Shown here piece after piece: positions 8,009 to 19,941 of a stretch of 64,000 nucleotides of DNA; position 1 is the first letter of the stretch, and every line of letters begins with the position of its first letter. The stretch comes from Candidatus Gastranaerophilales bacterium (GTDB lineage: Bacteria; Cyanobacteriota; Vampirovibrionia; Gastranaerophilales; Gastranaerophilaceae), in the NCBI GenBank assembly GCA_944323265.1, contig CALURX010000006.1:1-64000 (forward strand), written 5' to 3'. The position numbers and the translations under genes were made by a program. The notes under the pieces were generated by a model. It was not told the origin of the DNA, did no database searches, and was given only the letters and a program-made list of their open reading frames with translations.

Positions 8009-9328
8009 CTAGCCGGCTCGCAGGCTTAATTGAATCAATTCATTCACAACCGTATCATATTCGATTTTGTCATCGGTTGATTGAATCAGGAATTTGTTAA
8101 TATCATCCATTAACATAATAGCCCTGTCGCAAACCGGATCAGAACCCTTAACATAAGCACCGATGTTAATTAAGTCTTCATTTTTTCTGTGAACGGCAAG
8201 CAGGTTTCTTAAAATCCCGGCGGCGTTTCTGTGTTCTTTTGTAGTCACATCTCCCATAACACGGCTCAAAGACTGTAAAACATCAACAGCCGGATAGTGG
8301 TTTTTGTGCGCCAAATCTCTTGATAAAACGATGTGTCCGTCAAGAATACTTCTTGAAGTATCTGATATTGGTTCATTAAAGTCATCACCTTCAACAAGAA
8401 CTGTATAAAGTCCGGTAATTGTTCCAAATTCATTAGTTCCGGCTCTTTCCATTAGTTTTGGCATAAGAGCGAAAACTGAAGGTGTATACCCTCTTGTTGC
8501 GGGAGGCTCGCCGATTGCAAGTCCGACTTCTCTTTGTGCCATAGCAATACGCGTGACAGAATCCAGCATAAACAATACGTCCATTCCCTTATCACGGAAA
8601 TACTCGGCAATCGATGTTGCAACAAATGCCGCTTTTATCTTAACCAGCGACGGCTGCTCGGATGTTGCCGCAATTACAATAGAGCGTTTCATCCCCTCAG
8701 GTCCGAGAATCTCTTCAATAAATTCCTTAACCTCACGTCCGCGTTCTCCGATTAGTGCAATTACGTTTAAATCTGCCGTGGTATTTTTTGCCATCATGCC
8801 GATTGTCGTACTTTTTCCGACGCCTGAGCCAGCAAATATCCCCATTCTCTGCCCCTTGCCGACTGTAATAAATCCGTCTATAGATTTTATACCCAAAGGA
8901 AGCGCCTCGGTTATTCTTTTACGCTTTAAAGGATTTATGGCTTCTGCACTTGTTGAACGGTATTCCGAAAAACGGATTTCGCCCAATGTATCAATAGGTC
9001 TCCCAAGCCCGTCCAATACCCGGCCGATTAACTGATTCCCGACACCTATCTTCATCGGCGCACCGGTATTAACTACCAAAGCCCCGGGATGGATGCCGTC
9101 AGGAGAACCAAGAGGCATCAAAAGTATCTTGTCTTGCCTGAAACCTACCACTTCCGCCATTGCGGGAGTTCCGTTAAACTCATTGTATATATAACACAAG
9201 TCTCCGATTGATGATTTAGGGCCGTCAGATTCTATTGTAAGACCGATAATTTCGGTTATCTTCCCTATCTCTTTTATTGTGTTGGTATTTTTGATGATGT
9301 TTAAATATTTATCCTTATTCCAGCTCAT
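8009..9328 (-). CDS. fliI: Flagellar export ATPase FliI
   Basis: 439-residue F1-beta-like ATPase that energises unfolding and docking of substrates at the flagellar type III export gate. Walker A GSGVGKST is at 167-174; the Walker B/catalytic region holds LFMLDSVTRIAMAQREVGLAIGE and the family signature PPATRGYTPSVF. Length matches FliI. Its start overlaps the end of fliH by 14 nt, so translation is probably coupled. It is the last gene of the fliF-G-H-I run; no fliJ follows. Confidence 0.96.
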   Translation of the reverse strand: MSWNKDKYLNIIKNTNTIKEIGKITEIIGLTIESDGPKSSIGDLCYIYNEFNGTPAMAEVVGFRQDKILLMPLGSPDGIHPGALVVNTGAPMKIGVGNQLIGRVLDGLGRPIDTLGEIRFSEYRSTSAEAINPLKRKRITEALPLGIKSIDGFITVGKGQRMGIFAGSGVGKSTTIGMMAKNTTADLNVIALIGERGREVKEFIEEILGPEGMKRSIVIAATSEQPSLVKIKAAFVATSIAEYFRDKGMDVLFMLDSVTRIAMAQREVGLAIGEPPATRGYTPSVFALMPKLMERAGTNEFGTITGLYTVLVEGDDFNEPISDTSRSILDGHIVLSRDLAHKNHYPAVDVLQSLSRVMGDVTTKEHRNAAGILRNLLAVHRKNEDLINIGAYVKGSDPVCDRAIMLMDDINKFLIQSTDDKIEYDTVVNELIQLSLRAG

Positions 9329-10067
9329 CTTCGCTTCCTGTCAACATCTTCTCGCTTATTTCCGCTATTTGAGCCGAAACCCGTGAATCCAGCCTTATTG
9401 CAGGTGTCTCTACAATAACGCCGTCTATGGAGATTGAATTATCCTCCAATATCTTTAATGTCTTTAGCTGGGGTATTTCTGCTTTAAAATCGGGAACAAG
9501 CTTATTTATATTTTCTACAAGCCCCGGATTTACTATGATTGTTATACTCTCTTTATCATTTAATTGTTTTATCGCATCAAGTGTAATTTTATAAAGAACT
9601 TCATCGTCAAATGCTTTATGACAGATTTTGTCTGCAATAGCACTGACCAAGTCAACAATATCGCGGGAAGCGGAATCAATAATATTTTTCTTTAATTCAA
9701 ATGAGCTGCCAGATAATGTTTCCAGCGCTTTGAGACTGTCTTTTGAATCCTGATTAAACTTTTCAAGCCCATCCTGCCTGCCTTTTTCAAATCCTTCCTG
9801 ATAAGCCTGATTCTTTATGTTTTCGTATTCCTGCTGCCCTTTTTTTTTGGCATCCTCAATAATTCTTTCAGCCTCGGTATTGGCAGTCTCTGTAATAACC
9901 TGCGCTTTATTTTCGGCACTGCTCAGAATCTGCCTTGCCTTGGCGTCAGTCTCTTCTATAATCTGCTGAACTTTTGCCTGCTGGCGCGTTATATTTGACT
10001 GTTCTATCGGCAGAACAAAATTTTCACCTATTTTTATCTCATCACTTTTAATTCTGTTGCTACTCAA
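9315..10067 (-). CDS. fliH: Flagellar export stator FliH
   Basis: 250 residues. FliH binds FliI and regulates it, linking it to the C ring. The central part is a long charged, Ala/Gln-rich coiled coil containing the family-typical EGFEKGRQDGLEKF, and the C-terminal half resembles the HrpE/YscL/FliH domain (V-ATPase subunit E-like). Eight nucleotides overlap fliG upstream and 14 overlap fliI downstream. Assignment rests on both sequence and operon position. Confidence 0.9.
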   Translation of the reverse strand: MSSNRIKSDEIKIGENFVLPIEQSNITRQQAKVQQIIEETDAKARQILSSAENKAQVITETANTEAERIIEDAKKKGQQEYENIKNQAYQEGFEKGRQDGLEKFNQDSKDSLKALETLSGSSFELKKNIIDSASRDIVDLVSAIADKICHKAFDDEVLYKITLDAIKQLNDKESITIIVNPGLVENINKLVPDFKAEIPQLKTLKILEDNSISIDGVIVETPAIRLDSRVSAQIAEISEKMLTGSEDELE

Positions 10068-11109
10068 TTAATTCGTCCTCAACGCTGGCACGTGTAATAG
10101 TAATTTCGCCTGTTGCTTCAAGATTTCGGATTGAATTAACAATCGCGGTTTGTGCTTCCTGTACTTCTTTTGCCCGAACCGGACCAAGGTATTCCATATC
10201 ATCAATAAGCATCTGTCTTGCTCTTTCTGACATGTTTTTGAACACTTTATCCTTAATTTCGTCTTTTGTTCCCTTGAGCGCAAGTGCAAGCTGCTTGGTA
10301 TCGATTTCTCTGAGAAGTCTCTGAATTGCTCTGTCATCCAGAATAATAATATCTTCAAATACGAACATAAGGTCGCGTACTTCCTGAGCCATTTTTTGAT
10401 TCTCAATATCGAGCCATTCCATGATATTCTTTTCAGTTCCTCTGTCGCAGCAGTTGAGAATATTGGCAAGAGATTCAACACCTCCGGCGTTAGAAAAGTC
10501 TTGAACAAGCAGTGCTGAAAACTTGCGTTCTACAATATCTTCAATCGTAGATAAAATCTCGGGGTTAGTAGGCGTCATATCCGCAATGCGCATTGATACT
10601 ACCGCCTGGACATCAGGAGGAAGAAACGCAAGTACTTGTGCAGAAAGTTCCGGTCTCAAATATGCCAGAATCAGAGCAAGAAGCTGCGGGTTTTCTGATG
10701 CAAAGGTATTCGCGAGCTGGGAAGGGTCTGCTTCGTTTAAGAAATAAAACGGATTTGTGTTAACCATAGAGTTAACTTTTTCAAGCAGTTTTGCGGCCTC
10801 CTGTTCGCCGTAAGTTTGGACAAGCAGCTGTTTTGCGTAGCCTACGCCTCCCTGGGCAAGATAATTCTTTGCTTTAAATACTGTTTTAAATTCATTAAGA
10901 ACATCGTTTAAGTCTTCATCGGAAACTTTGCCCAGATTTGCAATATCAAGAGTAATCTGTTCAAGCAAATCTTCATCTTTTATATTTTTGAGTATTTCGG
11001 AAGCGGTAGTCGGGCCGAGTGCAATAAGAAGCGCCGCAACCTTCTGGCTCGGACGCGTTATTGTCTTTTTGGCTTCTTCTTTTGCTTTTTTTATTTCTTC
11101 TATACCCAT
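10060..11109 (-). CDS. fliG: Flagellar motor switch protein FliG
   Basis: 349 residues, usual length. FliG is the C-ring protein that contacts FliF and, through charged C-terminal residues, the stator. The N-terminal domain (KVAALLIALGPTTASEILKNI), middle domain and C-terminal torque helix region (FEDIIILDDRAIQRLLREID, with conserved charged residues) are all present, as is LGPVRAKEVQEAQ near the end. It lies 8 nt downstream of fliF and overlaps fliH. Confidence 0.96.
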   Translation of the reverse strand: MGIEEIKKAKEEAKKTITRPSQKVAALLIALGPTTASEILKNIKDEDLLEQITLDIANLGKVSDEDLNDVLNEFKTVFKAKNYLAQGGVGYAKQLLVQTYGEQEAAKLLEKVNSMVNTNPFYFLNEADPSQLANTFASENPQLLALILAYLRPELSAQVLAFLPPDVQAVVSMRIADMTPTNPEILSTIEDIVERKFSALLVQDFSNAGGVESLANILNCCDRGTEKNIMEWLDIENQKMAQEVRDLMFVFEDIIILDDRAIQRLLREIDTKQLALALKGTKDEIKDKVFKNMSERARQMLIDDMEYLGPVRAKEVQEAQTAIVNSIRNLEATGEITITRASVEDELIE

Positions 11110-11117
11110 TGATTACC

Positions 11118-12662
11118 TTAATCTTTTATAAATGATGTTATCAGTTTTGCTGCTTCCTCCGGCGCGGCCATAATTGTCTCGTTGAGTTCATTTATACTTT
11201 GTTCTTTTTGTGATTTCAACTCTTTTTTGTTAAATTCAATTTTTGGCATATCTTCTTCCTGCTCAATATCTTCGCCGGCTTTCTCAACTATTTCTTCCGG
11301 AATAATTTTTTCGGCATTTCTGGATGACGGAAGTTTAGAGATAAAGTTTTTCAGGATATAAAGACCGAAGCAGCCGAGTACAAGTACAATTATCAGCGGA
11401 ACAACTGATGACATTATAAAGTAGATAGTTTGCTCTTGTTGATATTGTTTATTAAATTCTTCCTGAGCTTTCTTATCTATTGTAGCACCCTCGAACTGGA
11501 GGCCTGAAACAGAAATTACATCTCCTCTTGAGTAGTCAACCCCTGCGGCGGAAAGAACAAGATTCTTCAACTCTTCTTTTTCTGCTTCGGTCAGAATTTT
11601 ATTGACTGCAACTGCAATGGAGAGGCGTTTTATTGTACCGGGTGCGTAGATGACCTGTTTAACCTCTTTTGAGACACTGTAATTCACGGCAGTCTTTTGT
11701 TTTGAATAATTGAGATTTCTCGGATTAACATTATTCGGGTTTGGAACATTATTCGGATTTTCGTAAGTTTCTACTTCGCTTTGCGAGCTGGTTACAACCC
11801 CTTCTCCTTTATCATTTACGGGAATATAGCTTTCTATGGTCGACTTTGCGGAATTAAAGTCAATATCGGCGTTTACCTGTACGGAGACATTGCCTTTGCC
11901 TACGATTTTTTCCAGAACATCAGAAACTTTTTTAGCAGTTTCTTTCTCAAGATTGCCCTTAAAACTTTCCATATCTGTTGAATTTTTAGAGGTCTCATCT
12001 GATAAGCTGTTGCCGTTTTGGTCTGTAATAAAAACCTGGTCGGGAGTCATTCTCGGAACGGCGTAAGCTACTAAATTTTTAATAGCTTTTACTTGAGAGG
12101 ATTTTATTTTATACCCCGGCTCTAATACCAAAACAACCGAAGCGGTAGGTTTGTCATCATTATCATCAAAAATAGACCGTTCAGGTTCTGCAAGCTGGAC
12201 GCGGGCGTATTTAACCCCTTGAATTTTTTCTATCGAGCGTGTGAGTTCGCCCTGAAAGATTCTTTGTTTTGTCAGTTTATTCTTGAAATCTGTTGAGCCG
12301 AGCTGCATGTCATCAAGGAGTTCAAAACCTGTATCTGAATTTTTGATAAGGTCATTTTCCGCGACAAAGACGCGCATTTCGTCTCTTACATTAGAAGGTA
12401 CCAGAATTGTTTTGTGGTCTTCTGAGACCTTGTACTGGTAACCGTTCTTTTTCATATTTTCAACTATGCTTATTGCATTTACTTCGTTTAAGTCAGTATA
12501 TAATACAACCCAATCCGGCTCCATGGCTTTTGACAGGAAAAATGTAGCTGCCGCAATTGTTATAACAATCAGGACAAGCATACCGAGTTTCTGGTTGCCG
12601 TCTAAGCCGTTCCAGAGTTTTTTTACGTCATTTGACAGTAGTGCAAAATAATTATTTTCCAT
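11118..12662 (-). CDS. fliF: Flagellar MS-ring protein FliF
   Basis: 514 residues from the ATG at 12662. A first membrane helix near residue 30 (LGMLVLIVITIAAATFFLS), periplasmic ring-building domains with typical AVPRMTPDQVFITDQNG and RLSIAVAVNK motifs, a second helix near residue 425-450 and an acidic cytoplasmic tail that would bind FliG are visible. GGGGAG precedes the ATG by 3 nt; a GTG 15 nt further upstream is possible but lies only about 8 nt from the predicted transcription start. First gene of the operon, with its own promoter. Confidence 0.95.
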   Translation of the reverse strand: MENNYFALLSNDVKKLWNGLDGNQKLGMLVLIVITIAAATFFLSKAMEPDWVVLYTDLNEVNAISIVENMKKNGYQYKVSEDHKTILVPSNVRDEMRVFVAENDLIKNSDTGFELLDDMQLGSTDFKNKLTKQRIFQGELTRSIEKIQGVKYARVQLAEPERSIFDDNDDKPTASVVLVLEPGYKIKSSQVKAIKNLVAYAVPRMTPDQVFITDQNGNSLSDETSKNSTDMESFKGNLEKETAKKVSDVLEKIVGKGNVSVQVNADIDFNSAKSTIESYIPVNDKGEGVVTSSQSEVETYENPNNVPNPNNVNPRNLNYSKQKTAVNYSVSKEVKQVIYAPGTIKRLSIAVAVNKILTEAEKEELKNLVLSAAGVDYSRGDVISVSGLQFEGATIDKKAQEEFNKQYQQEQTIYFIMSSVVPLIIVLVLGCFGLYILKNFISKLPSSRNAEKIIPEEIVEKAGEDIEQEEDMPKIEFNKKELKSQKEQSINELNETIMAAPEEAAKLITSFIKD

Positions 12663-12691
12663 GTACTCCCCGCGCACAATTATTCACTATT

Positions 12692-13236: not shown

Positions 13237-16026
13237 ATGAAGAGCTTAACCAAAAAAATATTAGTCGGAAGCATAATTACCGTATTTTTATTCTGCTCGG
13301 CAGGGATTGCGTCATATATGTGGCTTTTGCCGTCTCTGGTGTCAAGTTCGTGGATTCAGGGACAGGTCGAAAAATCCGTTCAAAAATATCTTAATGCGGA
13401 TTTGGATTTGGAAGGCGCAAAGCTCGCAACAGGCTGGAGACCGGAGCTTGGGTTTAAGCTTGACAAATTGTCTCTGAAAAAAGAGGATAAAGAACTTCTT
13501 AATCTCTCCGGGATTGATACGGAAGTTTCGTTTGAAGATATTTTTCAAAAAAGACTTATTATAAACAGAGTTCTTGCAGAAAATGTGTATGTGGATTCTG
13601 CAGGAATTATTGAACTGCTTCCGAAGACGGAAGAGAAAAAAGAACAAAAACCGTCTGATTTTACTATTGATATTTTTTCTGCTCTTCTAGGCGTTAAAAA
13701 ATGTCTGATAACTTATGATAATCCTGATATTGCAATAAAATTTGATGCAAGAGATTTGGTTCTTGACAGAACTAAGGCTAAAAAATACCTGCATTTCGAT
13801 TTTGATTTTGAAATGGCAAAGGGGCAGGATAAAATTGTTGTCTCAGCAGACGATCAGAACAGAATTTATATGGGGAACGGCGAGCTGCATGTTGACAGCT
13901 TCCCGATTGAGATTGATAAATCAAAAATCGTTATTGACGCTTTTGCCTCCAGAAAAACAGGCATGGAGATAAATATTTCTTCTAAAAACTTCAAGGCAAG
14001 AGATATTTATAACATGCTGACATCAAATATCATTATCCCTAACGGCAAAGAGCTTCTTGCTCCGATTGTTGATGTCAACGGAAGTGTGGATTTCAATCTT
14101 CACCTTGCAAAAAACAGTATCAGAGGGGATGTAAACGTAAACGAATCCGAGTTTAAAGTTAAAGATTTACTGAATATGCCTGTTAAGATTACACAGGGTA
14201 TTGTTGAGATTGGAAATAAAGATATAACTTTAAAGGATTTTAAAGGCTTTTACAATAACAAAAAAGAAAACAGTATTGTTATGTCCGGTGATGTTAAGGA
14301 TTACTGGAAGACTTGCGATACAACAGTTGTTTCCGATATTTTTGTAAACAATGACTTTTTCAAAAATTATGTATCAAAACTTCTGGGAGCTCCTATCGGG
14401 CTTGTGGGTGATGCCGGCTCAAGGCTTACTTTAACCTCCAAAAACGGTTCTTGTGACCTTGTATGGTACTTCTTGTTAAACGAGGGAGAAGGATTTGAAC
14501 TCGGCGATCAGTCAATGGTACTTAAGCAATACAAAACTCTTTTTAAAGTCGATTTGAGCGTTGTAAAAAATATTCTTAAAATTAATACGATTGATTATTA
14601 TATAACAGATAAGCTTCAAAAAGACATGACACCTGTTCTTGCAATCAAGGGAAATCTTGATATGGCGGATAATATGAAGCTTCTGGATATTAACCTTAAT
14701 ATTCCGCGTCCGCTTCCGAGTGAATTTTTGAACTTCCTTGCCTGCCAGAAGATTTTCAGAAAAGGTACAATATCAGGTGATTTAAGTATTGATAACACAG
14801 GCGAGTTTCCGAAAATGGACGGTGTAATCTCGTTTGATAAAGTTTTTGTACCTGCTCAGAGATTGTTTATCAAGTCTGCAAAAATCGGAGCTAAAGGCGA
14901 TAAATTAGGCGCTATAGCAAGCGGCAGATATAAAAGGTCTAAATATGACTTTAACGGATATATTGTTAACGATTTAAGACTTCCGATAGTGGTTAAGAGT
15001 GTTAATTTAACCGTTGATGATATTGATTTGGAAAAAATGCTTGCGGCAAACAATTCCAATACTCATAACACTGAACCTGCTAAGCAGGCGCTTGAAGAAA
15101 CTAACAATCAGGCAACAGAAGAAATCACAGAGGAAACACTTGCAAGCAGCGAAAGCGTTCCTACATTTACAAAAGGATTGATTATTGTTGAAAAATGTAT
15201 GCTTCATCTCGGTAAGGGTAAATATAAGCAGGTAGATTTCGGCAATCTGCACGCTAATCTGACGCTTGATAAGGATGGCGTTTTGAATGTTCAATCCAAC
15301 AAATTTGATATAGCGGAAGGGATTTCAACCCTTAAGGTTAATGCTGATTTAATTAAGAAAAAATACTACTTAAGATTGGGCGTAAAAGATGTTAATTCTG
15401 ATGTTATGGCAGGAGCAGTTCTTGGGCTTCCGAGAGAAATTTCAGGTAAGGCAAGCGGATTAATTGAAATTAACGCTGATGAAAGCCTTAAGCTTAATGG
15501 TATAATCAGATTCTTGATTCAGAACGGAACGATTGAAAAAGTCGGCTATGTTGAATATATCTTGAAAGTTGCGTCATTGTTCAGGAATCCTCTTGCGATG
15601 ATTACACCTGCAACGTTTGGTGATTTGGTAACTATTCCGGACGGAAGTTTCGACAGTATTTCCGGGGATTTAATTCTGAAAGATAACGTGATTGAACTTA
15701 TCAAAATTAAATCCAGAGCGTCTATGTTGAGTTCGTTCATTGTCGGAAGGTATGAGCTTGAAACCGGTGACGCTACGTTGAGAATTTATACTAAGATGTC
15801 AAATAAGGGTGAAGGTTTTGCCGGATTTTTAAGAGGACTTTCTCTCAACAGCCTTGCAAACAAGATTACGGCAAGCGGAAGAAACGACAGTAATTATTAC
15901 GCATCTGAACTTGCGCAGCTGCCGCCAATTGACGCGGATGAAAAAGACTGTCAGGTGTTCTTGACTAAAGTTGATGGGGATGTTATTAACTTTAACTTCT
16001 TATCATCGCTTAGAAGGATTAAGTAG
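13237..16026 (+). CDS. AsmA-like envelope protein
   Basis: 929 residues with a single N-terminal membrane helix (residues about 8-32), then a very long beta-rich region with repeated short segments of the AsmA/YhdP/TamB type and a C-terminal block (about 760-900) with the AsmA-like pattern GTIEKVGYVEYILKVASLF followed by FDSISGDL and a hydrophobic beta tail. Such proteins form periplasmic bridges thought to carry phospholipid or help outer-membrane assembly; that role here is inferred from family. A Gln/Glu/Thr-rich, low-complexity patch lies near residue 610-650. Its 3' end overlaps the convergent acyltransferase gene by 8 nt. Confidence 0.75.
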   Translation: MKSLTKKILVGSIITVFLFCSAGIASYMWLLPSLVSSSWIQGQVEKSVQKYLNADLDLEGAKLATGWRPELGFKLDKLSLKKEDKELLNLSGIDTEVSFEDIFQKRLIINRVLAENVYVDSAGIIELLPKTEEKKEQKPSDFTIDIFSALLGVKKCLITYDNPDIAIKFDARDLVLDRTKAKKYLHFDFDFEMAKGQDKIVVSADDQNRIYMGNGELHVDSFPIEIDKSKIVIDAFASRKTGMEINISSKNFKARDIYNMLTSNIIIPNGKELLAPIVDVNGSVDFNLHLAKNSIRGDVNVNESEFKVKDLLNMPVKITQGIVEIGNKDITLKDFKGFYNNKKENSIVMSGDVKDYWKTCDTTVVSDIFVNNDFFKNYVSKLLGAPIGLVGDAGSRLTLTSKNGSCDLVWYFLLNEGEGFELGDQSMVLKQYKTLFKVDLSVVKNILKINTIDYYITDKLQKDMTPVLAIKGNLDMADNMKLLDINLNIPRPLPSEFLNFLACQKIFRKGTISGDLSIDNTGEFPKMDGVISFDKVFVPAQRLFIKSAKIGAKGDKLGAIASGRYKRSKYDFNGYIVNDLRLPIVVKSVNLTVDDIDLEKMLAANNSNTHNTEPAKQALEETNNQATEEITEETLASSESVPTFTKGLIIVEKCMLHLGKGKYKQVDFGNLHANLTLDKDGVLNVQSNKFDIAEGISTLKVNADLIKKKYYLRLGVKDVNSDVMAGAVLGLPREISGKASGLIEINADESLKLNGIIRFLIQNGTIEKVGYVEYILKVASLFRNPLAMITPATFGDLVTIPDGSFDSISGDLILKDNVIELIKIKSRASMLSSFIVGRYELETGDATLRIYTKMSNKGEGFAGFLRGLSLNSLANKITASGRNDSNYYASELAQLPPIDADEKDCQVFLTKVDGDVINFNFLSSLRRIK

Positions 16027-17023
16027 GAAAGTTTTTATTATTCCGCCTGTCCCAGTTTATGTTTTGTTTAACAACTCGTGCGGGGTTGCCGGCTATTATA
16101 CAGTTTTGTTCGTCAAAAGCTTTGGTGACAATCGAGCTTGTTCCGACAACGCAGTTGGATGGAATAATAGAGCCTTTCAGGATTTTACAGTCGGAAGCTA
16201 TCCAGACATGATTGCCGATTTTAACATCCTGAGGGGGATTTATTGCCTGCTTTGTTGTCGTGTCATAAATTGTGTGGCCATCATAGGTTCTTATAAAGAT
16301 TCCGTAACTTAGCATACAATTTTTGCCTATAATAACTTTTTGGCCCTGCTCATATTGCAGGCTTATTATAACATCTTCTGCTGTTGTGTTGTTTCCGATT
16401 TCTACTATGTTATTGCTTCCTGCATAAATTTTCATCTTTTTATATTGGTTGTGGCTGTTGATTATTATTTTTGAATTATTTGTGCAGGAAATGTAGGTTT
16501 GTTCTTTAACAATAATCGGCTCATGAATTTCAACATAATTATTGCTGCCGTAGAATTTAACTTTTAAGTTTCTGATTCTTGGGTTGTAAATTTTTTTCCC
16601 ATTTAATTTTATGTAAACAAAAGTGTTGTTTTTTCTGCCGGAAAATTTTTTTAGTCTTTCTTCCATTTTTTGAAGAAAGGATATTTTTATCACAGGAACA
16701 ACATTGAAGTTTAGTCTCTGCAATTCATTTATTAAAGCCAATGGTTTCTGGACTGCTGCAATGATATAATCTGGTCTGAAAGAGGCAAGATTTTCAATAG
16801 AAATGATATTATATCCGGATTCTTGTCCGGCTTCATCTTCCTGCAGATATTTTTTGTCGCAGATTCCGATAACGTTCAAATCAGAAAACACTCCTTTAGA
16901 GTTGAGAAGTCGGAAGAATTTGCCGGCACCATAGATTATTACTTTTTTATCCTTGAGCCTCTCTTTTAGTTTTTTGATATACTCTTCATTTTGAGCAAAA
17001 ATTCGATTCAAATCATCTGTCAT
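16019..17023 (-). CDS. Two-domain sugar O-acyltransferase (Rossmann-like + left-handed beta helix)
   Basis: 334 residues. Residues 1-110 form a Rossmann-like module with KVIIYGAGKFFRLL near 28 and a predicted nucleotide- or sugar-binding fold. From about 130 to 320 hexapeptide repeats form a left-handed beta helix ending in the acetyltransferase signature (GNHVWIASDCKILKG, SNCVVGTSSIVTKAF, IIAGNPARVVK). The likely role is O-acetylation or similar of a surface sugar. AAGGAT serves as SD with TATAAT about 20 nt further upstream. The two following plus-strand genes carry a related N-terminal module. Confidence 0.8.
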   Translation of the reverse strand: MTDDLNRIFAQNEEYIKKLKERLKDKKVIIYGAGKFFRLLNSKGVFSDLNVIGICDKKYLQEDEAGQESGYNIISIENLASFRPDYIIAAVQKPLALINELQRLNFNVVPVIKISFLQKMEERLKKFSGRKNNTFVYIKLNGKKIYNPRIRNLKVKFYGSNNYVEIHEPIIVKEQTYISCTNNSKIIINSHNQYKKMKIYAGSNNIVEIGNNTTAEDVIISLQYEQGQKVIIGKNCMLSYGIFIRTYDGHTIYDTTTKQAINPPQDVKIGNHVWIASDCKILKGSIIPSNCVVGTSSIVTKAFDEQNCIIAGNPARVVKQNINWDRRNNKNFPT

Positions 17024-17115
17024 AAAAATTATCCTTGAAATTAATTATATCCTAAAATCTGAAATTGACACATTATTTTAAGTTTGTTACCATATTGGAA
17101 GAGAGCGGGGAGTTT

Positions 17116-18231
17116 ATGACAGAATTAACGCAAGAAGAGAAGGATTTTTTATCAAATATACCCCAAAACGCAGTTGTTTGTATTTGGGGCGCTGCAAATG
17201 CAGGGATGTCTATAAAAGAAAGGCTTGAAGAATACAGAAAAGATGTTAAAATTGCTGCTTACATCGATTCTTCCAAACAGGGTGAGATTGATTCTGTAAG
17301 AATTTATCGTCCTGATGACCTTGGAAAAATTAGGGATAAATTTGATTATATGATAGTGTCAACACGCTCTGACAGTACGGTTATTGACGCTGTTTTATTC
17401 TATTATGATATAAATAATTACATCAGGATTTCTAAAAGTCTTTTGAAGAAATATCAGTTTATTCCGTCGAAGGTTTCTGAAATATTGGGCTTCCTTGATA
17501 CAGAGGCTGACAGGGAATTATACAAAGACCTTATTGAGGCAAGGATTAGCGGAAATACGGAAAAACTGCAGCAGTATGTTTTGAGGGAGCATAATATAAC
17601 GCCGGATAGGAAGAGGACAATTAAACATTATACTTCTTATATTAACTATGACGCGATTGAGGTTATCATAGAAGGCGGAATGTTTAATGGCTTGAATACT
17701 GTTATATTCAAAAAACTGTTTAAAAACTTAAAAAAGGTTTATGCGTTTGAACTTCTTTATGAGAAAGTGAAAAACAAGTCGCTTGCGCATATTATAGATT
17801 CTATGAAGGAGCTTGAAATTATACCTTATGCAATGTGGGATAAAAAGGATACGCTTGTATTTACTCAGAATGTGGCGGCTCCTTATTCATCAGGTATAAA
17901 TCCGACTTTTAACAAAAACGGCTCTGAAAGAAATTTTGAGGTCGATGCTCTTTCTATAGATGAATTTGTTGAAAATAGAAAAATTGATAAAGTTGATTTT
18001 ATCAAAATGGATATAGAAGGCGCTGAGATGCGGGCACTGAAAGGCGGAGAAAAAACTCTTCTAAAATTCAGGCCTCAAATGGCGATTTCAATTTATCATT
18101 CGGATAATGATATGCAGGATATTCCAATCTATCTTCATGGGCTGCTTAAAGATTATGTATTCAAAATAGGACAATATTCGCCTGATAATGACGAAACTAT
18201 TTTATACGCGATTCCAAAAGAGTTAGTTTAG
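17116..18231 (+). CDS. FkbM-family methyltransferase with N-terminal Rossmann-like module
   Basis: 371 residues from the ATG at 17116, chosen because GGGGAG precedes it; a TTG further upstream lacks an SD. Residues 1-110 hold a module with VVCIWGAANAG and AAYIDS, similar to the neighbours. The C-terminal 200 residues match FkbM methyltransferases: IEGGMFNGLNTVIFKKLF (SAM binding), YAFEL, then the hallmark DFIKMDIEGAEMRALKGG and a late ISIYH. It probably O-methylates a glycan or flagellin sugar. It precedes the CDP-glycerol transferase-like gene by 12 nt. Confidence 0.85.
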   Translation: MTELTQEEKDFLSNIPQNAVVCIWGAANAGMSIKERLEEYRKDVKIAAYIDSSKQGEIDSVRIYRPDDLGKIRDKFDYMIVSTRSDSTVIDAVLFYYDINNYIRISKSLLKKYQFIPSKVSEILGFLDTEADRELYKDLIEARISGNTEKLQQYVLREHNITPDRKRTIKHYTSYINYDAIEVIIEGGMFNGLNTVIFKKLFKNLKKVYAFELLYEKVKNKSLAHIIDSMKELEIIPYAMWDKKDTLVFTQNVAAPYSSGINPTFNKNGSERNFEVDALSIDEFVENRKIDKVDFIKMDIEGAEMRALKGGEKTLLKFRPQMAISIYHSDNDMQDIPIYLHGLLKDYVFKIGQYSPDNDETILYAIPKELV

Positions 18232-18243
18232 CGAGGCGTTTTT

Positions 18244-19941
18244 ATGAATTCTATTTATGAGAGCTACCTTAAGGAGCATAATTTTGAATCCAAATTGGAA
18301 CAATGGGCAAAGCTTTATAAGAATAAAAAAGTTATTCTCTACGGCTGCGGGCTGTTGTTCGATAAAATTGTAGAGCTCTATGATATAAAAAGTAAGTTAA
18401 ATGTTGCTGCGGTATGTGATGTTAAGTATGAGAAAAACAAACCGGATTCTTATTTGGGGTTTGATACAATAAGACCGTCAGAGCTAAACAGCACGGATTA
18501 TGATGTTTTGATTTTTACGGTGTTTGACCATCTTACCTGCCTGAATTATCTCAATACATTCGACTTTTTCCATGAAAATAAAGAATACAGATATATTAAT
18601 GAGTTATCATTCAAAAATAAAATACATGCACTTGCGATAAAAACACGGATTGCACTAAAGTATTTGAAATCTACAAAAAATCCTGTTAAAACTATCAAAT
18701 ACTTTTTTGCCTGCAATAATATCGAATACAACTCAAAATATAATTACATGCAGGTTTTAAAACGTTTGAGGAGCAAAGAAGGCAAGATAAAGGTTATATT
18801 TATTGTAGAAAGTAACCAGAAATGGGGCTGGCAGTCTGTTTATGATGAACTTAAAAAAGACGAAAGGTTTGAACTTCTTCTTGTCACTCTTCCTTTAACA
18901 ACCAGGTTTAAGGACAAAATATATCCGCAAAAAGAAGATATTGAATTTTTCTCCAAACGCAATATGCCTATAATTGATGGGTACGATTACAAAAGAGAAG
19001 TGTGTATCAATCTCAAAGAATTAGGCGCGGATGTAATTTTCTACACTCATCCGTGGTTTGTTGATGTGCACAAAATTCCGCCTTCCATAACATCAGAGTT
19101 TGCTCTGACTTGTGCTATATCTTACGGCTTCAATATGGTAGAGAGCAAGTGCTGGGGAACAACAACTCCAAGAAACTTCTGTTCGAATCTATGGACGATG
19201 TTTGCAGAAAGCAAATGGCACAAACCTTTTTATGAAAACGGAACAAATTTGAAAAACAAAGATATTCTCTATGTTACAGGGTATCCTAAAATGGATGCGT
19301 ACCTTGAGCCTGTGAATCCTGAAATTGAAAAACTCTGGAAGGATGATAAGCACGAAAAACCCAGGATAATATATGCGCCTCATCATTCAATAGAGCGTGA
19401 TGGCGGGTTTGGAATGTCTAATTTTGTTGAGCATGCAGGATTCTTTTTGGAGTTTGCAAAGAATCATCCTCAGTATGAATTTCTTATAAAGCCGCACCCG
19501 GTTTTGAAATCAAAATGCGAGGCAGTGGGCTTTATGACGCCTGATGAGTATGACGAATACATAGAAAAATGGCGTGAGCTTCCGAATGGCAACGCTTATA
19601 CGCTCGGAAATTATTATGATGTTTTCAAAACTTCGGATATTTTGGTTACGGACTGCTCGTCATTTCTGGGAGAATACTTTGTAAGCTCAAAACCAATAAT
19701 TCTCTTGGAGAGCAAAAGCAGAATGCCGTTTAATGATTTCGGTCTTGAGCTTAAGAAAGGAATGTATGTTCCTCAAAAAGTTGAAGAGATTGAAGGAATT
19801 TTGGAAAATATCTTTGTGAATAAAAATGATGTTCTGGAAGCCAGACGCAAAAAGATTATCAAAGACTACTTTTTCCTGCCGGAAGGCGGAAGCGGAAAGT
19901 ACATTGTCTCTTATCTGAAATCACAGTTGAGAATGGACTAA
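18244..19941 (+). CDS. CDP-glycerol:glycerophosphotransferase-like enzyme with N-terminal Rossmann-like module
   Basis: 565 residues. Residues 1-120 repeat the module of the two neighbours (KKVILYGCGLLFDKIVELY, VAAVCDVKY). The C-terminal part has GT-B features of the CDP-glycerol glycerophosphotransferase/TagB-TagF family: IIYAPHHSIERDGG near 378, FLIKPHP near 418, and TDCSSFLGEYFVSSKPIILLE near 471, the acidic nucleotide-binding region. It may transfer glycerol phosphate or a sugar alcohol phosphate to a surface polymer. GAGG lies 8 nt before the ATG. Ends 2 nt from the convergent gene. Confidence 0.8.
   Translation: MNSIYESYLKEHNFESKLEQWAKLYKNKKVILYGCGLLFDKIVELYDIKSKLNVAAVCDVKYEKNKPDSYLGFDTIRPSELNSTDYDVLIFTVFDHLTCLNYLNTFDFFHENKEYRYINELSFKNKIHALAIKTRIALKYLKSTKNPVKTIKYFFACNNIEYNSKYNYMQVLKRLRSKEGKIKVIFIVESNQKWGWQSVYDELKKDERFELLLVTLPLTTRFKDKIYPQKEDIEFFSKRNMPIIDGYDYKREVCINLKELGADVIFYTHPWFVDVHKIPPSITSEFALTCAISYGFNMVESKCWGTTTPRNFCSNLWTMFAESKWHKPFYENGTNLKNKDILYVTGYPKMDAYLEPVNPEIEKLWKDDKHEKPRIIYAPHHSIERDGGFGMSNFVEHAGFFLEFAKNHPQYEFLIKPHPVLKSKCEAVGFMTPDEYDEYIEKWRELPNGNAYTLGNYYDVFKTSDILVTDCSSFLGEYFVSSKPIILLESKSRMPFNDFGLELKKGMYVPQKVEEIEGILENIFVNKNDVLEARRKKIIKDYFFLPEGGSGKYIVSYLKSQLRMD

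Follow-up and report, generated by a model that had tools for sequence, protein, structure and literature searches.

A Rossmann-like accessory module in two of three neighbouring surface-glycan genes of Candidatus Gastranaerophilales

Three neighbouring surface-modification genes of a Candidatus Gastranaerophilales bacterium lie in the window analysed here, the 64,000 nucleotides at positions 1 to 64,000 of contig CALURX010000006.1 (assembly GCA_944323265.1). They encode a hexapeptide acyltransferase, recognised from matches below the model cut-offs (P0001, 16019-17023, minus strand), an FkbM methyltransferase (P0002, called at 17065-18231, plus strand) and a CDP-glycerol-transferase-like protein of family PF04464 (P0003, 18244-19941, plus strand). 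The initial annotation placed the genes and their N-terminal motifs correctly and proposed that all three proteins begin with one ligand-binding module, which might recognise a common sugar or nucleotide substrate. Judged from sequence comparison, the module is real in P0001 and P0003, and in P0002 there is only a fold-level or very remote likeness. The module is widespread, no Pfam family is devoted to it, and we read it as a branch of a known group of nucleotide-binding accessory folds. We consider it about an even chance that the module of P0001 and P0003 is a nucleotide-binding, probably pairing Rossmann accessory module which positions or regulates glycan enzymes in Candidatus Gastranaerophilales.

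Sequence comparison of the three N-terminal domains

The N-terminal domains of P0001 and P0003 match each other by BLASTP (E=2e-8, 31% identity across 95 residues), and that of P0002 has no BLASTP match to either. In whole-protein scans none of the three N-termini matched a Pfam or NCBIfam family above cut-off. The relatives fall into type A (P0001, P0003 and their kin), type B, a mostly C-terminal sister group, and type C, which comprises the N-termini of FkbM proteins including P0002. Profiles grown from relatives of each type were compared with each other by hhalign, and with control sets drawn from the same genomes. The controls were named partly by reading, as applies to all names of the first set except clusters 4, 7 and 17. 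Types A and B matched at E 1.5e-16 to 1.9e-19. Nine control families, including short-chain dehydrogenase/reductase (SDR), FAD, S-adenosylmethionine (SAM) methyltransferase and iron-containing alcohol dehydrogenase (Fe-ADH) families, gave E 0.0048 or worse against all three types; closer were Gfo/Idh (4.7e-7 against C, 2.9e-5 against A) and Rex (7e-7 against B, 6.2e-5 against A). A tenth set, cluster 15, matched type A at E 2.3e-26 and was dropped as a control because two of its nine members carry the module. The kinship of A and B, about ten or more orders of magnitude beyond the Rossmann controls, is firm by these profile comparisons.

Type C is another matter. Its matches to type A ranged from E 5.5e-10 to 2.3e-7 depending on the alignment, that is from three orders beyond the closest control to about its level, and those to type B from 2.8e-7 to 6.4e-7. 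A strict hidden Markov model (HMM) was built from 54 copies, which included none of the six type C proteins then known, and a score of at least 35 bits was required of a module. P0001 and P0003 reach this score; P0002 scores 20.7 bits, which is below the 27.0 of the best type C protein and little above the 17.8 of the best Rex protein. In the P0002 loop the third glycine place also carries A or G, not F. P0002 was left out as a member because its loop differs and its similarity lies near that of other Rossmann families, and the weaker end of the A-C range strengthens this exclusion. A broader, iterative HMM was tried and dropped; it takes in P0002 at round 5 and later also a Rex repressor (L088:1184-1801), so its count of 196 carriers was not used and the strict count is 159, with P0002 outside it.

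The idea that all three domains are merely generic Rossmann folds that look alike is thus very improbable as a general account. It is true or nearly so for P0002, whose score lies close to that of Rex and whose type matches Gfo/Idh about as well as it matches type B, but it is false for P0001 and P0003, given their BLASTP match and the distance of the A-B comparison from the controls. The proposal of one module in three genes therefore stands for two of them only, and its joining to different catalytic domains is borne out by P0001, P0003 and some ten kinds of partner in their relatives, though not by P0002.

The feature boundaries are given in Table 1. The catalytic part of P0001 matched NCBIfam maltose/WbbJ-type acetyltransferase models (best E 3.7e-14) and Pfam Hexapep (E 4.4e-5), all below cut-off. 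P0003 scored 45.7 bits against PF04464, for which the gathering cut-off is 22.1. P0001 is divergent from P0002 and P0003, which are separated by 12 bases. Translation of P0002 more likely begins at ATG 17116 than at TTG 17065, in agreement with its orthologue in locus L060, which begins MSELTQEEKDF. Upstream of the glycan genes, window positions 8009-12677 read as a flagellar block, which we take to be fliI, fliH, fliG and fliF.

Table 1. Domains of the three proteins and their positions in the window
Feature	Position	Strand	Basis
P0001 N-terminal module, type A, residues 1-115	16679..17023	-	BLASTP to P0003 N-terminus; alignments A1, A5; AlphaFold2 model pLDDT 88
P0001 left-handed beta-helix (hexapeptide) acyltransferase domain, approximate bounds	16046..16636	-	Sub-cut-off NCBIfam and Pfam matches
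P0002 N-terminal Rossmann domain, type C, only remotely module-related	17116..17454	+	AlphaFold2 model pLDDT 88; hhalign and HMM with controls
P0002 FkbM methyltransferase domain	17677..18135	+	PF05050 E=2.8e-17; TIGR01444 E=1.2e-20
P0003 N-terminal module, type A, residues 1-115	18244..18588	+	BLASTP to P0001; alignment; module HMM
P0003 CDP-glycerol glycerophosphotransferase-like region	19201..19704	+	PF04464 E=5.6e-12

Distribution, partners and age of the fusions

From a collection of 84,980 species that was scanned for relatives, the best 80 of 90 were taken, which gave 79 loci. Of these, 57 are titled Candidatus Gastranaerophilales, four cyanobacterium or Caenarcanum, and two Clostridia or Clostridium (L126, L135). 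Of 57 genomes searched, 50 have matches to the type A profile, type B copies included, and at least 31 have free-standing or tandem copies. The search for other carriers that the initial annotation had suggested was productive: the fetched loci, mainly of Candidatus Gastranaerophilales and relatives and for the most part from searches aimed at the module, hold 159 distinct proteins at 35 bits or more. The module makes up nearly the whole protein in 72 free-standing (about 131 amino acids) and 15 tandem (about 255 amino acids) cases, and is N-terminal in 36, C-terminal in 33 and internal in three.

Genes were clustered by single linkage, and a representative from each of ten clusters was scanned with Pfam; the name of cluster 22 (TagD-like) comes from reading. 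About ten kinds of partner were found, among them glycosyltransferases of families 2 and 8 (GT2, GT8), pyruvyl transferase, P0003-like transferases, LicD-cluster proteins and hexapeptide acyltransferases, together with GNAT, sulfotransferase, Stealth, methyltransferase and radical SAM proteins. Among the matches listed, some clusters hold several carriers, as do G030:C56 with five and G007:C11 with four. The genome of the window itself has, on contig C2 (L007 6964-11989), three adjacent genes with type B modules at their C-ends, encoding a pyruvyl transferase with a ferredoxin/FrhB part, a GT8 and a GT2, so that the pattern of the window recurs at the opposite protein end.

Two further observations concern individual loci. 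In Clostridium sp. chh4-2 (L135 245-2932) an 895-amino-acid protein combines LicD, a module-like middle part that scores below the strict cut-off and a metallophosphatase. At the 3' end of L205, at the edge of the fetched stretch, a long RE repeat closes an open reading frame (ORF) and may be an assembly artefact.

All three genes of the window are found in the same order in L060. Identity between the two loci is 93% in the module and 86% in the catalytic part of P0003, 56% and 74.5%, respectively, in P0001, and 87% in the N-domain and 92% in the catalytic part of P0002. A FastTree tree of 174 module copies was built and for each the nearest copy in another protein was sought. The partner of this copy is of the same kind in 141 of 174 cases, where label frequencies would predict 37.6, and in a single case both copies share a locus. 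When close relatives were ignored, at the widest cut, the same kind of partner was found in 123 of 174 (34.2 expected) and the same locus in four. A recent local duplication of the module was considered and rejected on these counts. After the L060 orthologue, the next three copies to P0001 are free-standing, as is the next copy to P0003. The fusions look old, with no recent local shuffle, because nearest copies share the type of partner and hardly ever the locus. Partner type tracks subtype and protein end, and the tree pattern is no test of function.

Fold, relatives and conserved residues of the module

In the AlphaFold2 model of P0001 residues 1-130 (71 sequences; predicted local distance difference test, pLDDT, 88), a Rossmann-like domain carries two additional helices at its N-terminus. 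The P0002 domain (12 sequences, pLDDT 88) is also predicted to be Rossmann-like, so the structural comparison and alignment that the initial annotation called for gave like folds in the two proteins modelled, and an alignment that unites P0001 with P0003 only. The best structural match of the type A model was to residues 1-93 of 2g6t (Z 10.3, root-mean-square deviation 2.2 Å across 84 residues). It also matched the C-terminal domains of KijD1, TcaB9 and MtmC (Z 8.7-9.8), the N-domains of PerB and Pcryo_0637 (Z 8.0-8.2), 3nkl (Z 8.1) and residues 146-243 of WbaP, its domain of unknown function (DUF; Z 7.4). For the P0002 domain the matches were 3nkl (Z 11.7), Rex (9.7-11.2), WbaP (10.5) and 2g6t (10.0), and Foldseek searches with both models returned mostly generic Rossmann rows. 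By sequence, type B matched 3nkl at E=9.1e-6; the best match of type C was the flavoprotein FSP1 (E 0.00082), with 3nkl at E 0.0016.

Pfam scans of 27 type A and 15 type B members at E<=1 matched Methyltransf_14 more than any other family (12/27 and 8/15). The first type B member exceeded the cut-off for that family (28.9 bits), and the P0001 module scored 14.5 bits against a cut-off of 23.5 (E=0.031). PglD_N and C2185-like_N were each matched by seven of the 27 type A members (best E 0.00051 and 3.1e-5, respectively), and CoA_binding by five of the 15 of type B. As whole proteins, P0001 and P0003 had no PglD_N match up to E 10 and none to C2185-like_N. The phosphoglycosyl transferase DUF, PF13727, was not matched by P0001-P0003 up to E 10 and is absent among the 25 families listed for type A members and the 16 listed for type B. 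The module looks like a branch, without a name of its own, of the PglD_N/Methyltransf_14/C2185-like_N/WbaP-DUF Rossmann group; no description of it was found in the literature searched, coverage of which was partial.

Each of these relatives resembles the module in part. In the PglD_N proteins (PF17836; the sugar N-acetyltransferases NeuD, PglD and Pcryo_0637) a Rossmann module precedes a left-handed beta-helix acyltransferase, a layout found in P0001 and not in P0002 or P0003. The glycine loop and the acidic residue after strand 2 are also alike. Unlike PglD_N, the module has extra N-terminal helices and a replaced base-reading Asp, and it is also free-standing, tandem, C-terminal and attached to many other enzymes. 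Methyltransf_14 (PF08484), the C-terminal domain of the dTDP-sugar C-3' methyltransferases KijD1 and TcaB9 (Z 8.8-9.8), is placed as in type B, whereas the module sits on other catalytic domains. The WbaP DUF (PF13727) of large phosphoglycosyl transferases is likewise an accessory fold of nucleotide-binding type on a glycan enzyme, but WbaP is a membrane enzyme whose DUF dimerises by swapping a beta-hairpin. C2185-like_N (PF22674), to which 2g6t presumably belongs, is represented there by an uncharacterised protein of C. acetobutylicum.

Several of the nearest solved relatives bind nucleotides, which lends support to the ligand-binding part of the initial annotation; for the module itself we infer binding from them. 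Passages of PMC8040287 describe the Pcryo_0637 N-domain as a binding platform for uridine diphosphate (UDP), in which Ser11 and Asp40 lie close to the ribose and the uracil is held by Asp41. In the portion of PMC10942596 consulted, the WbaP DUF dimerises, supplies most inter-chain contacts of the enzyme and is stabilised by UMP, UDP or UTP; the enzyme is inhibited by UMP, and its authors propose regulation by this by-product through nucleotide sensing. For a myxobacterial relative without the hairpin, a partner protein is modelled in part of PMC12802240 as stabilising that dimer.

In an alignment of 71 type A copies Y31 and G32 are invariant, and G34 (70/71), D56 (70/71), D85 (67/71) and N50 (65/71) are nearly so. 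Position 34 and D56 would correspond to Ser11 and Asp40 of Pcryo_0637, going by the aligned ranges of the structures. G32, G or S at 34, and D56 are intact throughout the free-standing group (73/73, made up of 72 free-standing proteins plus a 181-amino-acid ORF), in 17/17 copies fused to acyltransferases, in 7/9 P0003-like fused copies, and in 12/13 first and 15/16 second tandem copies. Position 37, the third place of GxGxxG, is F in 58 copies, L in five, S in four, T in three, C in one and G in none, and in type B it is L or I in 15/15. The Rex-like NAD loop is therefore absent from type A, and such a third residue suits a dinucleotide poorly. A redox-sensing domain binding NAD(P), as in Rex, would account for the Rex matches of the models (Z 7.1-7.7 for type A) and of the type B profile, and for weak matches of type A members to 2-Hacid_dh_C (8/27, best E 0.00018) and Shikimate_DH (4/27). 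We regard it as improbable, since in addition to the altered loop no dehydrogenase occurs among those partners that were identified.

A stronger contender, though still the less likely course, is a domain for protein docking or assembly, in which free-standing and tandem copies act as adaptors through module-module contacts and nucleotide binding is secondary or lost. It would explain the 72 free-standing and 15 tandem proteins that consist of little else, the fusions at both protein ends and the several carriers per cluster, including the three type B genes on C2. The tandems L054 4675-5472 and L138 5536-6306, in which the glycine loop is lost from the first copy and survives in the second, and the inter-chain contacts of the WbaP DUF also fit. 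Conservation of the loop and acidic residue throughout the free-standing group goes beyond the needs of a pure docking surface; the rarity of nearest relatives within a locus counts against docking as well, though compatible with it.

Genomic context and proposed role

Linkage to CDP-alcohol genes was assessed in 67 type A copies (the first 72 A-profile matches listed less five second tandem copies) and in the first 50 type B matches listed, with positions copied by hand. Among these matches, 12 of 34 free-standing or tandem type A copies lie within 6 kb of a PF04464 gene (0.16 expected), as do 12 of 33 fused copies, six of them in the same ORF, and two of 50 type B copies. Genomes with a PF04464 match hold 18 of the 34 and 15 of the 50, and within these genomes 12/18 free-standing or tandem type A copies are near PF04464 vs 2/15 of type B. 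Such linkage might simply reflect a general clustering of glycan genes, a concern that the type B control allays in part. Of the 59 species-scan loci with a free-standing or tandem copy, 36 have a CDP-alcohol gene no more than 6 kb away, or 30 if the P0003-like cluster 3 is not counted.

Some free-standing copies lead same-strand rows of an IspD-like cytidylyltransferase, an SDR and PF04464, and others lead rows with a P0003-like transferase and a GT2. In L064, L080, L085, L131 and L072 the free-standing module is divergent from a phosphoenolpyruvate (PEP) mutase-cytidylyltransferase fusion, a thiamine pyrophosphate enzyme that is phosphonopyruvate-decarboxylase-like, and an Fe-ADH. By analogy with Fom1, as covered in part of PMC6697681, this set resembles the CMP-hydroxyethylphosphonate pathway, the product being predicted from the gene set, and it suggests surface phosphonates in Gastranaerophilales. 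The genome of the window has two TagD-like genes (by reading; PF01467 matches), one of which directly adjoins LicD (L203 1477-2769), so CDP-glycerol is plausibly made there. The linkage favours, without showing, a cytidine nucleotide as the type A ligand, an identity that is speculative.

The nucleotide-binding role starts from the homology of P0001 and P0003, the predicted fold, the occurrence at both ends of proteins and on its own, the linkage, and the conserved loop and acidic residue. Enzymes of the PF04464 and LicD families release cytidine monophosphate (CMP). Nucleotide binding with pairing is favoured because of this release, the UDP site of Pcryo_0637 and the behaviour of the WbaP DUF. 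The module would be a plug-in part or free subunit of surface-glycan enzymes and would hold a nucleotide at the glycine loop and conserved acidic residue, which for type A may be a CDP-alcohol or the CMP remaining after phosphotransfer. Pairing with a second copy would then position or regulate the attached or adjoining transferase.

Several results weigh against this role. The weak NAD-type matches are the main one. The Z values of the type A model are middling and include CoA ligases (8.3-8.9) as well as Rex, TM-scores over the query are 0.34-0.54 among the 50 matches listed, and in sequence comparison the TrkA-like 2g1u is the top PDB match for type A (E 0.0032), with 3nkl at E 0.059. Of the Asp pair of PglD relatives the first is kept (D56) and the second, which reads uracil, is replaced at position 57 by K, R or M in 53/71 copies (K or R in 43/71); this fits another base or no base recognition, and the base, or binding itself, may differ. 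G32 is missing in two of nine copies fused to cluster 3/10 transferases. The acetyl-, sulfo- and methyltransferase and radical SAM partners use no CDP-alcohol, and L114, the only other cluster 3 protein scanned, matched no Pfam family. A free-standing nucleotide-binding domain also has no obvious catalytic use.

One more specific and rather doubtful form of the nucleotide-binding role is that the free-standing module acts in trans as a regulatory subunit that senses CMP, pairs with module-bearing transferases and throttles a pathway for teichoic-acid-like or phosphonate-decorated surface polymers in Gastranaerophilales; the P0003 fusion would be its one-piece version. For annotation, adjacent N-termini of the 'VIIYGAG' kind should not by default be taken for a single shared module, and a Rossmann likeness at the level of the fold has to be weighed against Rossmann controls. 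Carried by about ten kinds of glycan enzyme, the module could be a general handle that couples nucleotide state to surface-polymer synthesis.

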